A stretch of DNA of 64,000 bases from the NCBI GenBank assembly GCA_020348305.1, contig CP070746.1, positions 3,713,675 to 3,777,674 of the forward strand, in the 5' to 3' direction. Each line of letters starts with the position of its first letter. Within the stretch, counting starts at the first letter, position 1. A model generated the notes under the pieces. That model had not been told where the DNA came from, searched no databases, and saw nothing but the letters and a program-made list of their open reading frames with translations. Source of the stretch: Desulfobacterales bacterium (GTDB taxonomy: Bacteria > Desulfobacterota > Desulfobacteria > Desulfobacterales > JAHEIW01). Below are positions 35,726-56,830 of the stretch, in pieces. The position numbers and the translations under genes were made by a program.

Positions 35726-35728
35726 TTC

Positions 35729-35791
35729 AGAGGACGGATAACAGAGGACAGAGGTCAGAGGACAGATAAGAGAGGGCGGAGGTTAGAGTAT
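35729..35791 (+). repeat. Degenerate heptad array, consensus AGAGGAC (9 units)
   Basis: Nine contiguous 7-base units without a phase slip. AGA begins seven of nine; units AGAGGAC occur three times, with variants such as AGAGGTC, GGATAAC and AGATAAG. It fills the gap between two small exported-protein genes. Confidence 0.75.
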
Positions 35792-42794: not shown

Positions 42795-42802
42795 AACATG
42801 CT

Positions 42803-42844
42803 GGATGCCGGAAACTGGTTTCTGGTCGCTGGTTTCTGGAAAGT
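42803..42844 (+). repeat. Degenerate heptad array GGnnnCT (6 units)
   Basis: Six contiguous units all beginning GG, with GGTTTCT twice and variants GGTCGCT, GGAAACT, GGAAAGT, GGATGCC. Lies between gap and fba and ends about 50 bases before the fba start. Confidence 0.7.
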
Positions 42845-48415: not shown

Positions 48416-48706
48416 ACTATTTAAGATTTTCGTTACGAGTATCAAAACGGCTGGAAAGAAACAGAGATAGTCATTCAAGGTTTAACATCGGATTTTTGAA
48501 AACAAATGAAATTAAATTGCGGAGCGGAGCGACATCATTGTTCGATGTTCAACGTTGGAAGTTCGATGTTCGACGTTCATCTTTCAAAACAACCCTGCAC
48601 GGCATAAATGTAACTTGTGAATATTTGCAAAACAACTTAGTGCTTACGGTGCTTGGCCCCTGCCCGATAATCGATGAGATCATTAAGAGCCTATTTTTTG
48701 GAATCG
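48416..48706. other. Gene-free stretch with a heptad array
   Basis: Holds the GTTCGAT array (48540-48588). A 73-codon ORF (48496-48717) runs through the array (reads FDVQRWKFDVRRSSF). The rest of it, with TCEYLQNNLVLTVLGPCPIIDEIIKSLFFGIA, has no start signal or family, so it is not called. Confidence 0.5.
48540..48588 (+). repeat. Degenerate heptad array GTTCGAT (7 units)
   Basis: Seven contiguous units, six beginning GTT (GTTCGAT twice, GTTCAAC, GTTGGAA, GTTCGAC, GTTCATC), with no phase slip. Confidence 0.75.
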
Positions 48707-50812: not shown

Positions 50813-50871
50813 GTCATTATTTCAGAAAATCCCCCGACAACTTATCTATTTAAGTTCATTGCACCTAAACG

Positions 50872-50983
50872 CGCAACCCGAATCACGAATCTCGCAACCC
50901 GCACTCAGCAACCCTAACACTCCAACACGCAACGCACAGCGCGTACCGCGCAACCCGCAATTCGTAACGCGTTATCCACAACC
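50872..50983. repeat. Degenerate heptad array CGCAACC (16 units)
   Basis: Sixteen contiguous 7-base units (112 bp) with no phase slip, between alr and lipA. Column 1 is C in 14 of 16 and column 4 is A in 15 of 16. CGCAACC itself recurs three times. It stops 2 bases before the lipA stop codon. Confidence 0.85.
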
Positions 50984-50985
50984 CA

Positions 50986-51870
50986 TCATGCTTTGACTGC
51001 CTGAAAGAGCTCTTTTGCATGATACGAACTGCGCACAAACGGTCCGCTGGCCACTTCAGAAAATCCCATTTTGCGGGCAATGTCACGCCAATGTTCAAAT
51101 TCTTCGGGAGGGATAAACCGTTTGACCGGCAGATGTTTTTTTGTTGGCTGCAAATATTGACCTAAGGTTAAGATACGGCAGCCTACACGCAAAAGATCCT
51201 CAAGCGTTTTTTTAATTTCCTCACGTTTTTCACCGAAACCGAGCATTAATCCTGACTTAGTGGGTATTGAAAAACCAAAGGCTTGGACGCGTTCAAGCAA
51301 TTCCAATGAGCGCTTATAGTTTGCTTCCGGACGTACTAAAGGATAGAGGCGCGCAACCGTTTCAATATTATGATTTAACACATCGGGCCGGGCTTGCAAG
51401 ACAGTTTGAAGCGCTTCGGCACTGCCCTGAAAATCCGGTATTAAAACTTCCACACATGCATCCGGTATTCTCTTGCGTATTTCCTTGATCGTTTTGGCAA
51501 AGAAACCGGCTCCGCCATCCGGCACGTCATCGCGGGTGACGGAGGTCACCACCACATATTTCAATCCTATTCGCTGAGCGACTTCCGCCACCCTAACCGG
51601 CTCATCCGGATCCGGTGGGGTGACAGGTCCTGCATCAACCGAACAAAAGCGACAGTTGCGGGTGCAGCGTGAACCCAGGATGAGAAATGTGGCTGTCTGT
51701 TGGCCAAAGCATTCCCAGATATTTGGGCACTTCGCTTCCTGGCATACCGTATGTAACCGGTCTTTGTTGATCATTGATCTGACATTTTCATAAATCGGAC
51801 CGGTGGGCAGCCGACGTTTTAACCAGCTGGGTTTTTGTACCAAAACGGTGGACTGAGATTGGTGTTTCAT
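50986..51870 (-). CDS. lipA: Lipoyl synthase
   Basis: 294 residues, radical SAM enzyme inserting two sulfurs into protein-bound octanoyl groups. Auxiliary cluster motif CQEAKCPNIWECF near residue 43, radical-SAM cluster CTRNCRFC near 69, and the C-terminal RSSYHA serine ligand. It follows lipB on the minus strand and matures the lipoyl group of GcvH encoded upstream. Its start codon lies inside a heptad array (51856-51918), which makes up its first five codons. Confidence 0.95.
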   Translation of the reverse strand: MKHQSQSTVLVQKPSWLKRRLPTGPIYENVRSMINKDRLHTVCQEAKCPNIWECFGQQTATFLILGSRCTRNCRFCSVDAGPVTPPDPDEPVRVAEVAQRIGLKYVVVTSVTRDDVPDGGAGFFAKTIKEIRKRIPDACVEVLIPDFQGSAEALQTVLQARPDVLNHNIETVARLYPLVRPEANYKRSLELLERVQAFGFSIPTKSGLMLGFGEKREEIKKTLEDLLRVGCRILTLGQYLQPTKKHLPVKRFIPPEEFEHWRDIARKMGFSEVASGPFVRSSYHAKELFQAVKA

Positions 51871-51972
51871 GTCTGTTTGGATGATTGGTGTTTAATATTT
51901 GGTGTCTTGTGTTTAGCCTTTTCATTCAATGTTTGGAAAGATTACCAAACACGAAACACAAAACGCTAAACA
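51856..51972. repeat. Pair of complementary heptad arrays across the lipB-lipA gap
   Basis: Array 51856-51918 (nine units; TTTGGTG and ATTGGTG are typical) overlaps the lipA start. Array 51945-51972 (four units, CCAAACA type) overlaps the lipB stop. They are mutually complementary, so the transcript between lipB and lipA can fold into a long imperfect hairpin. Confidence 0.7.
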
Positions 51973-52829
51973 CGTTCAGCCATTGATTCATGTTTTTGAT
52001 TTCGTAAAATACCTTCCAGCTCAAAATAGCTCTTTGTAAAAAGCGCTACGCCAAAAACCGCCTCTAATTGTTCTTTTAAGACCTCCCGCACGCTGTTCAT
52101 GGATAACTCCTCGGACAGCTCTTGCTTCATGGAGGTCATACGAACATCTTGCATACCGCAGGGTTGGATCCAGGAAAAGGGCTTTAAATCTAAATTAACG
52201 TTTAGGGCCAAGCCGTGAAAGCTGATGCCTCTGCGAAGCGCAATACCGATGCTGCCCATTTTCTTATCACCAACCCAGATTCCGCGGTTGGCGGGATTTC
52301 GTTCGGCCGTAATTCCCCACATCCCAACCGTCTGTAGCATCACTTCCTCTAATGCTTCAACAAAATCAACAACAGCCACCCTGGCGGCTTCCAAATCCAT
52401 GATGAAGTAAACGACGAGTTGTCCGGGGCCGTGATAGGTAATATTGCCGCCGCGTTCGACCTGGATCACCGATATGCCGGATTTCCCCAGATCGGACTTG
52501 GAGACGAACAGGTTCTCACTTGCCCCTCGGCGGCCTAGCGTAAACACACACGGGTGTTCTAAAAGCAAGACAATGTCTGATGTAATGGTTTTATTTATGC
52601 GAGCCTCGACAAGATCGGTTTGCAATTTCCAGGCTGTACGGTAATCAATGAGGCCTAAATCGACACAGAAACATTTATCGAGTTCCGAGTTCCGGGTTTC
52701 GGGTTGCGAGTCACGGGTTCCGGGTTTCGGATTTCGGGTTACGAGTTGCGCGTTTCGAGTTTCTGCTTGAACCTGTGCTATAGATTTTGAATTCGAATTA
52801 CTTACTCTGTTATTGTTACTTGAGATCAT
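51966..52829 (-). CDS. lipB: Octanoyl-(acyl carrier protein):protein octanoyltransferase with repeat-encoded N-terminus
   Basis: 287 residues. The LipB domain starts near Cys53 (CVDLGLIDYRTAW) and has RGGNITYHGPGQLVVYFI, KMGSIGIALRRGISFHGLALNV with the active Lys, and the catalytic Cys in IQPCGMQD. It transfers octanoyl from ACP to GcvH-type domains. Residues 1-52 are extra: residues 23-50 are four heptapeptides (first ETRNAQL, last ETRNSEL) encoded by the DNA array 52680-52763. No in-frame ATG, GTG or TTG lies between the array and the domain, so the array appears to be translated. Confidence 0.92.
   Translation of the reverse strand: MISSNNNRVSNSNSKSIAQVQAETRNAQLVTRNPKPGTRDSQPETRNSELDKCFCVDLGLIDYRTAWKLQTDLVEARINKTITSDIVLLLEHPCVFTLGRRGASENLFVSKSDLGKSGISVIQVERGGNITYHGPGQLVVYFIMDLEAARVAVVDFVEALEEVMLQTVGMWGITAERNPANRGIWVGDKKMGSIGIALRRGISFHGLALNVNLDLKPFSWIQPCGMQDVRMTSMKQELSEELSMNSVREVLKEQLEAVFGVALFTKSYFELEGILRNQKHESMAERV
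52680..52763. repeat. Degenerate heptad array GGGTTTC inside lipB (12 units)
   Basis: Exactly twelve 7-base units on the plus strand: column 1 G in 12/12, column 4 T in 12/12, column 7 C in 12/12, column 5 T in 11/12. On the coding (minus) strand three units make seven codons, giving four TRN/TRD heptapeptides. Confidence 0.9.
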
Positions 52830-52844
52830 ACACGCACCCCGATT

Positions 52845-54302
52845 TCATCCCCTCAAGCAAGGCTTTCTTGCAGCAGCAGTTTCATCCAGCCTTCTTCGTC
52901 TGGAGTTTTTCGGGGCCTCTCGCAACAGCTCTGTGTTTTCCTTGGCTTCGTTGGCAATTGCTTTCATGGAATCAATGAAAAGATCAATATCTTCTTTGGA
53001 CTCGGTTTCGGTGGGTTCGATCATAATCGCTCCCGGAACCACCAGCGGAAAATAAATGGTCGGCGGATGAAAGCCGTAATCCATCAAGCGTTTCACCATA
53101 TCCAAGGTGGTCACTTTGTGGACCTGCTGGTTTTTATCGGAAAATACGCACTCATGCATACATGGGCGGCCATAGGCGAGATGTAACGTATCCTTTAATT
53201 TTTGTTTGATGTAGGCGGCATTTAAGACAGCCAATTGACTGGCCTTTTTTAGATTATCGGCACCCATGCTCAAAATATAACTGTAAGCCCGTATCAGCAC
53301 CCCAACATTTCCGTAAAAGGCGTGGAGTTTCCCGATGGATTCCGGAAAATCTACAGAGAGTAGATGTTGCCCCTCTTTCTCGATAACACGCGGTATAGGA
53401 AGAAACGGCTCCAGATGCTTTCGAACGCACACCGGACCGGAACCCGGGCCGCCGCCGCCATGGGGGGAGGAGAATGTTTTATGGAGATTTAAATGCAGCA
53501 CATCAATGCCGATATCTCCCATGTGAACGATTCCCATTACCGCATTCATGTTGGCCCCATCACAATACACCAGACCGTCTTTGGCGTGAACAATTTCGGC
53601 GATTTCTTTAATATTTTCCTCAAACAATCCAAGGGTGTTGGGGTTGGTGACCATAATACCGGCTGTTTCCTCATCCATTATTTGAGAGACGTCTTCGGGT
53701 GCCAAGATGCCTTTGTCATTGGACTTTATCGTAACAGGTTGGTATCCGCACAATGCGGCGCTTGCCGGATTGGTCCCGTGAGCCGTATCCGGAACGATGA
53801 TTTTCGATCGCGGTGATCCCTTGCTTTTGTGATATGCGTGAAACAGAAGCATTCCGGCAAGTTCGCCGTGGGCGCCGGCTGCCGGTTGTAGAGAAGCTGC
53901 ATCCATGCCGGTGATGTCCACCAGAAATTTTTCCAGCTCAAACATCAATCTGAGTATCCCTTGCGATAGATGGGGGGGCAGTAATGGATGGGCACCGGCA
54001 AATCCGGGTTGGCTCACCTGTCGCTCATTGGTTTTGGGATTATATTTCATCGTACAAGAGCCTAACGGATACATTCCACTATCGACGCTGAAATTCCATT
54101 GGGACAGACGGATATAATGCCGGATGACATCGACTTCACTCAAATCCGGAAAATCAGGGCCGTCACTGACAAATGATTCGTCGACCGGATATGATTCAAC
54201 ATCACGCCGGGGCAGAGAATAGCCGGTTCTGCCCTTTTTTCCTTTTTCCCACAGCAGTGGTTCATTGAGTATTAAGCCGGTTGTGCCAGGGTATTCTTTC
54301 AT
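52845..54302 (-). CDS. gcvPB: Glycine dehydrogenase (decarboxylating) subunit 2
   Basis: 485 residues, C-terminal half of a split P-protein. The PLP lysine is in NLHKTFSSPHGGGGPG near residue 277. Also YPLGSCTMKYNPK and QPAAGAHGELAG. With GcvPA it decarboxylates glycine and loads the aminomethyl group on GcvH. ATG at 54302 overlaps the gcvPA stop by 4 bases. Its stop is 15 bases before lipB. Confidence 0.95.
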   Translation of the reverse strand: MKEYPGTTGLILNEPLLWEKGKKGRTGYSLPRRDVESYPVDESFVSDGPDFPDLSEVDVIRHYIRLSQWNFSVDSGMYPLGSCTMKYNPKTNERQVSQPGFAGAHPLLPPHLSQGILRLMFELEKFLVDITGMDAASLQPAAGAHGELAGMLLFHAYHKSKGSPRSKIIVPDTAHGTNPASAALCGYQPVTIKSNDKGILAPEDVSQIMDEETAGIMVTNPNTLGLFEENIKEIAEIVHAKDGLVYCDGANMNAVMGIVHMGDIGIDVLHLNLHKTFSSPHGGGGPGSGPVCVRKHLEPFLPIPRVIEKEGQHLLSVDFPESIGKLHAFYGNVGVLIRAYSYILSMGADNLKKASQLAVLNAAYIKQKLKDTLHLAYGRPCMHECVFSDKNQQVHKVTTLDMVKRLMDYGFHPPTIYFPLVVPGAIMIEPTETESKEDIDLFIDSMKAIANEAKENTELLREAPKNSRRRRLDETAAARKPCLRG

Positions 54303-55630
54303 GTTACAATCTCCTTAACCAAAGTATCAATGTCTTCCTTCGCCATGGTTTCTGTGACGCACAATAAATAGTGGTTGGCAAGCTCAGGATAATAGCATTC
54401 CAGAGGCAAGCCTGCGATGATGCGTTTCTTCAGCAGGTCTTGGTAGGTCGTCTCAAATCCTTCCGGAAACTGGACGACCAATTCATTAAAGGTCGATTGG
54501 CTAAACGGCAAGCTATAGCCGGCCTTGCGTAGCTGATCTTTCAGATACTCGCACTTATCGTAATTCAACCGGGCGAGTTCTTTAAAACCGCTTCCTCCAA
54601 CCGAAGCCATATAGATACTCGCTGCCAGGGCACACAGGCTGTGGTTCGTACATATATTTGAGGTCGCTTTTTCGCGGCGAATGTGCTGCTCACGAGTGGC
54701 CAGCGTCAGCACAAATCCTCTTCTGCCTTCCACATCTGCGGTCTGACCGACCAGCCGTCCCGGGATATTGCGAACATATTTTTGTTTGGCGGCAAACATC
54801 CCCAGGGCCGGTCCGCCAAAAGTGCGGGGTATTCCTAAACTTTGTCCTTCTCCACAGGCGATATCGGCATCAAAGCTTCCGGGATTTTTATACATACCGT
54901 ATGCCAGCGGTTCGGTGAAGCCCACCACCGAAAGAGCTTTTTTATCATGTGCTTTTTTAGCGCTGGATTGAAGATCTTCAATGCAGCCGAAAAAATTAGG
55001 CGATTGGACGGCTACCGCGGCAAGATTTTCCAAATCATTTATTTTTGACAGATCGGTAATCCCCGCTTCGGTATAGGGTAATTCGATAATTTCACAGTCG
55101 GTGGGTGCGAAATAGGTTTCGATCACCTGGCGGTAGTTCGGATGGATCAGGCGTGAGACGGCCACCTTCTTTTGGCGCGTTATGCGGACGGCCATCAGAA
55201 GGGCTTCTGCAATTGAAGACGCTCCATCATATTGGGAGGCATTGGCCACATCCATACCCAGAAGGCGGGCGGTGAGCGTCTGATATTCAAAAATGGCCTG
55301 AAGCGTCCCCTGACTGATTTCCGGCTGGTAGGGCGTATACGATGTCACAAACTCGGAGCGGGACAGCAAATAAGAAACCGATGCGGGAATATAGTGGTCA
55401 TAACTGCCTGCACCCAGAAATACTCTAAACTCCGGAGATACCGCCATCGTATTGGAAAGCTTGTCAATGTGCTTATTCAATTCCCACTCCGTCAATGCTT
55501 CAGGCAGTTTCAGATCGCCTGTGCGGCGACAATCATAAGGTACGGTGGGGAAAAGATCCTCAAGGGATTTGACCCCAATTGCCTGCAACATGGCCGAAAT
55601 ATCTTCAGGAGTGTGGGGCAAGTAACGCAT
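54299..55630 (-). CDS. gcvPA: Glycine dehydrogenase (decarboxylating) subunit 1
   Basis: 443 residues, N-terminal half of the split P-protein. RYLPHTPEDISAML opening, FLGAGSYDHYIPASV, YTPYQPEISQGTLQAIFEYQT (marker: YQPEISQG), GEGQSLG and TREQHIRREKATSNICTNHSL (marker: IRREKATSNICTN). It forms the heterodimeric glycine decarboxylase with GcvPB. Five bases after the gcvH stop. Confidence 0.95.
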   Translation of the reverse strand: MRYLPHTPEDISAMLQAIGVKSLEDLFPTVPYDCRRTGDLKLPEALTEWELNKHIDKLSNTMAVSPEFRVFLGAGSYDHYIPASVSYLLSRSEFVTSYTPYQPEISQGTLQAIFEYQTLTARLLGMDVANASQYDGASSIAEALLMAVRITRQKKVAVSRLIHPNYRQVIETYFAPTDCEIIELPYTEAGITDLSKINDLENLAAVAVQSPNFFGCIEDLQSSAKKAHDKKALSVVGFTEPLAYGMYKNPGSFDADIACGEGQSLGIPRTFGGPALGMFAAKQKYVRNIPGRLVGQTADVEGRRGFVLTLATREQHIRREKATSNICTNHSLCALAASIYMASVGGSGFKELARLNYDKCEYLKDQLRKAGYSLPFSQSTFNELVVQFPEGFETTYQDLLKKRIIAGLPLECYYPELANHYLLCVTETMAKEDIDTLVKEIVT

Positions 55631-56514: not shown

Positions 56515-56830
56515 GAGTTGATATAGCGCTTAAGTTAATAGTATAAATAAAAAATTAGGAATTTTTGATGATTCTGTCAATAATTAATTTATTTTTTTAT
56601 GATTTCATCAAAAAATTATGAATTTTTTTTAATTTTAACAAGATTCTTATATATAGTCCATATTTTTGAAGAATAAAATCAATCGGATGATACCTCAAAG
56701 ATTTTAATGGAGTTGCAAAAATATTTTGCTTGTGTTATGCAGCCCTTCAATTTTTTTGGCGATGAATGTGAAATTTAATTTGGCTGTAATATTAGAAATT
56801 TAAATCAAATGATGGAAAAGGAGATTAGCA
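56515..56830. promoter_or_regulatory. Divergent lrp/livJ promoter region with an inverted repeat
   Basis: 316 bases, about three quarters AT. AATTTTTGATGA (56560-56571) and TCATCAAAAAATT (56605-56617) are complementary except for one extra A, 33 bases apart. AT-rich, spaced inverted half-sites are typical Lrp/AsnC targets. No single promoter stands out. Ribosome site AAAAGGAGA before livJ. Confidence 0.45.

Follow-up and report, generated by a model that had tools for sequence, protein, structure and literature searches.

How does a tandem repeat of the kind that mostly lies between genes come to stand within the reading frame of a conserved enzyme, and is it translated there? The question is raised by lipB in the window, i.e. 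the whole 64,000-nucleotide stretch of DNA analysed here. The gene order at this locus is gcvPA, gcvPB, lipB, lipA, with the following features:

54299 to 55630, minus strand: gcvPA, overlapping the start of gcvPB
52845 to 54302, minus strand: gcvPB, ending with its stop 15 nt upstream of the lipB ATG
51966 to 52829, minus strand: lipB open reading frame, 287 amino acids, predicted octanoyltransferase, domain at about residues 51-263
52827 to 52829, minus strand: lipB ATG, with no other in-frame start preceding the LipB domain, and with a Shine-Dalgarno duplex of -8.6 kcal/mol
52764 to 52829, minus strand: non-repeat first part of the extension, LipB residues 1-22, predicted disordered
52679 to 52762, minus strand: heptamer array of 12 units, CGRGTTN on the plus strand and NAACYCG on the mRNA strand, equal to LipB residues 23-50
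50986 to 51870, minus strand: lipA, the next gene in the set

The protein exceeds the cut-offs of three curated family models, TIGR00214 (168.6 bits, cut-off 83.55), NF010925 (184.4, cut-off 155) and PF21948 (155.6, cut-off 27), and matches three further LipB models below theirs. C224 and K190, which we take to be the catalytic Cys and Lys, are invariant across 47 aligned sequences. The solved relatives 2qhs, 2qht and 1w66 align from residue 50-56 onward; in the AlphaFold2 model (mean pLDDT 87), residues 1-47 have low confidence, the domain is mostly above 90, and the first beta strand, at residues 52-60, follows straight after the array. Residues 1-47 are thus predicted to be disordered, and the enzyme domain is intact. 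The protein departs from the usual short N-terminus before the first strand: 50 residues stand before the domain, versus a median of 7 in 152 loci, although this end is variable and does not define LipB. The enzyme had initially been called essential, which is doubtful: because the same genome encodes, at another place, a 553-residue LipB-LipA fusion (L248:483-2144, minus strand; G000, about 413.5-415.1 kb), the essentiality of lipB is not secure. The fusion adjoins a dihydrolipoamide dehydrogenase-like ORF, with which it makes up the genome's second set of lipoate genes.

The array is real and not a chance product. Tandem Repeats Finder delimits it at 52678-52763 with period 7, 12.3 copies and 75% matches; its lag-7 score of 42 is the joint top in the 864 kb sampled from this genome (the 64-kb window plus forty 20-kb stretches), and a three-unit pattern with at most one mismatch has 60 matches in the whole genome versus 0 for the reversed-pattern control. 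The original prediction had described 84 bases in 12 units, in frame as residues 23-50, which is this array at the same length: its coordinates, 52680-52763, are moved by one base against the unit phase and coincide exactly with LipB codons 23-50. All four heptapeptides, ETRNAQL, VTRNPKP, GTRDSQP and ETRNSEL, carry T-R-N/D as described, though their seven-residue period adds no evidence, because every in-frame 7-nt array yields one. Unit identity inside the array at successive lags (7 to 42) is 0.77, 0.71, 0.73, 0.79, 0.80 and 0.71, with no fall. As mRNA, the array forms a weak fold (-14.4 kcal/mol versus -28.4 on the opposite strand), and an RNA element as its identity was ruled out, with 0 Rfam matches in 52500-53000 and no excess of RNA stability over shuffles (z -0.15). 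A palindromic mobile element was ruled out as well: the scan of 52640-52860 found two inverted repeats, neither inside the array. Rickettsia palindromic elements, which are palindromic and mobile repeat DNA carried in frame within conserved proteins, resemble the lipB array in the latter respect and differ from it in their inverted repeats.

Arrays of this class have a strict 7-nt period and are dispersed genome-wide: lag-7 segments scoring 13 or more number 58 in the 864 kb, whereas lags 3-6 and 9-13 give 0-6 and lag 8 gives 12. In 40 arrays measuring 49 nt or more, units become less alike with distance, their identity being 0.68 at lag 7 and 0.46 at lag 42, against about 0.26 out of phase; duplication accompanied by divergence would give this pattern. 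The repeat had been regarded as of a non-coding type, which fits its abundant counterparts: 44 of 48 arrays in the sample of this genome and 45 of 49 in that of a same-genus genome were called intergenic, counts inflated by our own rough gene caller, which penalises arrays and placed even lipB's outside lipB. Unlike most arrays of this genome, that of lipB sits in a reading frame. With the same caller, and with a single array possibly counting for two genes, the sense strand is C-rich in 21 of 27 arrays at most 80 nt from a gene start (p 0.006) and G-rich in 35 of 47 arrays at most 80 nt from a stop (p 0.001); a parallel GT/AC orientation measure did not reach significance (p 0.087 and 0.059). 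The array of lipB has its C-rich strand in sense, the orientation typical 5' of genes. Arrays of three exact units occur patchily in the order, in 47 of 194 genomes.

Further repeats are present in the window. A second array of the lipB unit type, more degenerate, lies between lipA and alr (50867-50972); a CTGGTTT-type array (42798-42839) lies at the 5' end of a fructose-bisphosphate aldolase-like ORF, which probably starts at a Met further on, so that the array would stay untranslated; other units recur at 35727-35788 (CAGAGGA), 48535-48586 (TGTTCGA) and 51947-51974 (AAACACG types); and a 31-nt unit is repeated 2.6 times at 56549-56629. Period-8 arrays constitute a second class, with 12 segments scoring 13 or more in the sample of this genome and 13 in the G001 sample.

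Among 272 ATG genes called from this genome, 82% have a Shine-Dalgarno duplex no stronger than that of the ATG at 52829, a strength reached by about 2% of random 15-mers. As had been stated, the stretch from the array to the LipB domain has no ATG, GTG or TTG in frame; the starts found there, ATG 52674 and GTG 52666, are in the wrong frame. Also absent in frame, from the array up to codon 60, are CTG, ATT, ATC, ATA and ACG. The next near-cognate start in the lipB frame is the ATT of codon 61, and initiation there would lose the first beta strand, because the AlphaFold2 model places that strand at residues 52-60. The original prediction had made translation of the array obligatory unless a rare start were used downstream; the only such codon seen comes too late. 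Sequence and model support the view that a LipB which keeps its first beta strand cannot be made without translation through the array, and the array is almost certainly translated as a LipB leader. The open frame across the array is by itself weak evidence: in simulated arrays assembled from 224 genomic units, the probability that a chosen frame on this strand stays open over 12 units is 0.32, about one array in three by chance, and the remaining two frames of the actual array contain one stop apiece. That the repeat spares the frame, at first considered notable, is therefore not remarkable.

An alignment of lipB starts in relatives had been proposed as a check, and array-borne extensions indeed recur in other genera. 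The 154 loci pooled here comprise the best 80 of one collection, relatives, three whole-genus searches (two in genera already seen with arrays, one in a sister genus) and part of a 194-genome sample of the order, the lipB loci of its weakest-scoring genomes lying outside the 154; loci with a domain match starting after query residue 15 were dropped before the count and duplicates merged. Period-7 sequence lies 5' of the LipB domain in 26 of the 154, a fraction which is not a population rate, because the sources are mixed and include searches of array genera. The obligatory extension, measured to the nearest in-frame start, reaches at least 20 residues in 12 of the 152 loci to which the above median refers, and at least 26 in nine. 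In seven of these nine, the extension holds a significant heptamer array: L201 (62 residues), L203 (51), this genome (50), L033 (34), L039 (34), L217 (30) and L037 (26); in L204 and L036 the long extension has none. The original prediction took an orthologue with an unrelated N-terminal extension of the same length as evidence against it: orthologues with unrelated extensions of 26-62 residues do exist. The seven array-bearing loci span four genera and three families, all have gcvPB directly upstream of lipB, and their units are NAACYCG in this genome, L037, L201, L203 and L217 and ACAACGG-like in L033 and L039.

Other loci show other arrangements. The lipB of a same-genus genome (L032) is preceded by a different array, which ends a few bases before its ATG; in L244 and L262 the nearest start is a TTG at or inside the array; in L202 the array reaches the contig edge, with the lipB start out of view; and L034 has an ATG inside the extension, 12 codons ahead of the domain. 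In a first set with 98 distinct lipB loci, the 160 nt 5' of the domain were periodic at lag 7 (p at most 0.01) in 16 of 98 lipB, 14 of 84 lipA, 0 of 56 gcvPB, 0 of 26 gcvPA and 1 of 11 alr genes; none of the coding-region controls of the five genes showed this signal. A hotspot specific to lipB was ruled out, the rate in the lipA spacer being similar.

Arrays are also found at other protein starts. In the same-genus genome, a TruB gene (L195:13315-14355, plus strand) contains an array at residues 16-40, ahead of TruB_N at 66-214; only its last part must be translated, because starts also fall within the array. Two neighbouring pseudopilin-like genes of this genome (L155:5007-5441 and L155:4223-5053, both minus strand) have heptamer sequence in the leader before a GFTL motif, presumably the end of the leader peptide. 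Several further arrays open into the next gene and need not be translated, because an ATG intervenes.

We hold it very probable that a spacer-type array at the gcvPB-lipB junction is read as LipB residues 23-50 and is tolerated as part of an unstructured tail. Ribosomes would initiate lipB at ATG 52829 right after gcvPB, pass through the 84-base array of intergenic type that occupies the junction, and enter an ordinary LipB domain, the 50 extra residues forming a tail which the enzyme tolerates. Most likely, the array arose or grew in the spacer, possibly by slippage; a nearer lipB start may then have been lost or overrun, and the upstream ATG would have taken over. The array had been proposed to invade the enzyme, but more probably a repeat already present in the gcvPB-lipB spacer was brought into frame when the start moved upstream: recruitment is likelier than invasion because many relatives, including the same-genus genome, hold arrays in lipB/lipA spacers. 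The tree does not decide between gain and loss of the extension: in a fast tree of 151 LipB domains (3 of the 154 rows, with identity under 44% or short, were left out) the label needs 5 changes, and only 2 changes between the array group and other named groups are forced by well supported branches.

The position of arrays upstream of the start in the same-genus genome and many other relatives would also suit a 5' leader RNA, with LipB starting after the array at a rare codon. A comparison of L033 with L034 is relevant here: over extensions of 34 codons each, without gaps, differences by codon position are 14, 14 and 14, versus 24, 17 and 75 over 200 codons of the domain. Selection on the amino acids of the extension was rejected on this evenness; in this sole pair compared, no constraint is seen and the tail is probably free to drift. 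Even differences fit a translated free tail and an untranslated stretch equally, and to that extent favour the leader RNA. Against it stands the lack of any in-frame start, standard or near-cognate, up to codon 60, and the six other array-bearing lipB genes are likewise without a start after the array; we regard such a start as improbable.

Slightly less probable still is that the extension is selected as a functional element, serving interaction, localisation or stability, and that the array is kept for this purpose. Arrays recur in LipB extensions in four genera, and the g18 pair of extensions share their first residues, MNLNLAT, as such selection might produce; however, units and extension sequences vary between genera, the extension is predicted to be disordered, the L033/L034 pair lacks amino-acid constraint, and the same-genus relative manages without an extension. 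Heptamer-type repeats are slippage-prone in principle, and seven is not divisible by three, such that loss or gain of one unit would shift the frame and switch LipB off, but neighbouring units in the lipB array are only 77% alike, which disfavours slippage and makes phase variation very unlikely. Assemblies may contain errors and the LipB-LipA fusion could have put lipB out of use, but a frame artefact or a decayed gene has equally little to commend it, as the domain is open, is 76% identical to the same-genus LipB and retains its invariant residues, and the arrangement is seen at six other loci.

The lipB array belongs to an already known type, heptamer repeats that sometimes enter frames, as in Beggiatoaceae and Xanthomonas; what is new is the recurrence at one enzyme. 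As described in MacGregor 2015 (PMC4679880), TAACTGA repeats of Beggiatoaceae, Cyanobacteria and Bacteroidetes are dispersed and mostly intergenic, often just 5' of start codons, and a few lie inside frames at protein ends (the start of a corrinoid ABC permease, the end of MurG). The arrays studied here are likewise dispersed and mostly intergenic, with a minority at protein ends; the TAACTGA system, however, has one fixed unit, translatable in a single orientation, whereas here many degenerate units occur and the same enzyme is affected in several genera without an alternative start (PMC4679880). The GGGAATC and GGGGA(C/T)T repeats of Xanthomonas and Nostoc, described in Rehm 2015 (PMC4692102), are degenerate, G-rich and mostly intergenic (intragenic copies are rare in Xanthomonas); their G-rich strand is the antisense one in the 50 bp ahead of ORFs and the sense one directly behind stop codons. 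This is the polarity observed here, although their G-runs of 3-4 are quadruplex-capable and the lipB unit has CGGG or CGAG (PMC4692102). Geobacter metallireducens has tandem heptanucleotide elements at 49 places, likewise both between and within genes, which differ from the lipB array in their GC-rich unit (consensus GGACCGG), four copies and proposed regulatory role (PMC2700814). Borg tandem repeats are intergenic or lie in ORFs, where they give disordered protein stretches as predicted here, but within ORFs their units come only in multiples of three and the copies are almost all perfect, in contrast to the imperfect 7-nt lipB array with 75% matches (PMC9879509). In the open-licence literature, no prior report was found of different heptamer arrays being repeatedly captured by the N-terminus of one enzyme, nor any of heptanucleotide repeats in Desulfobacterales, nor anything direct on a LipB N-terminal extension.

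A wider reading, for which we would claim little confidence, is that in these bacteria heptamer arrays are a standing, oriented part of gene boundaries, C-rich and weakly folded on the mRNA at gene starts and G-rich after stops. At starts, a shift of the initiation codon could move them from leader RNA into protein or back, and they would be a regular source of new disordered N-termini such as the LipB, TruB and pseudopilin leaders. A peptide like TRNPQPATRN in a predicted protein is readily dismissed as a wrong start call, and gene callers may misplace starts next to heptamer arrays; the lipB case is testable because no other start exists. Spacer repeats can turn into protein ends, and at lipB the arrangement recurs in several genera with different repeats.
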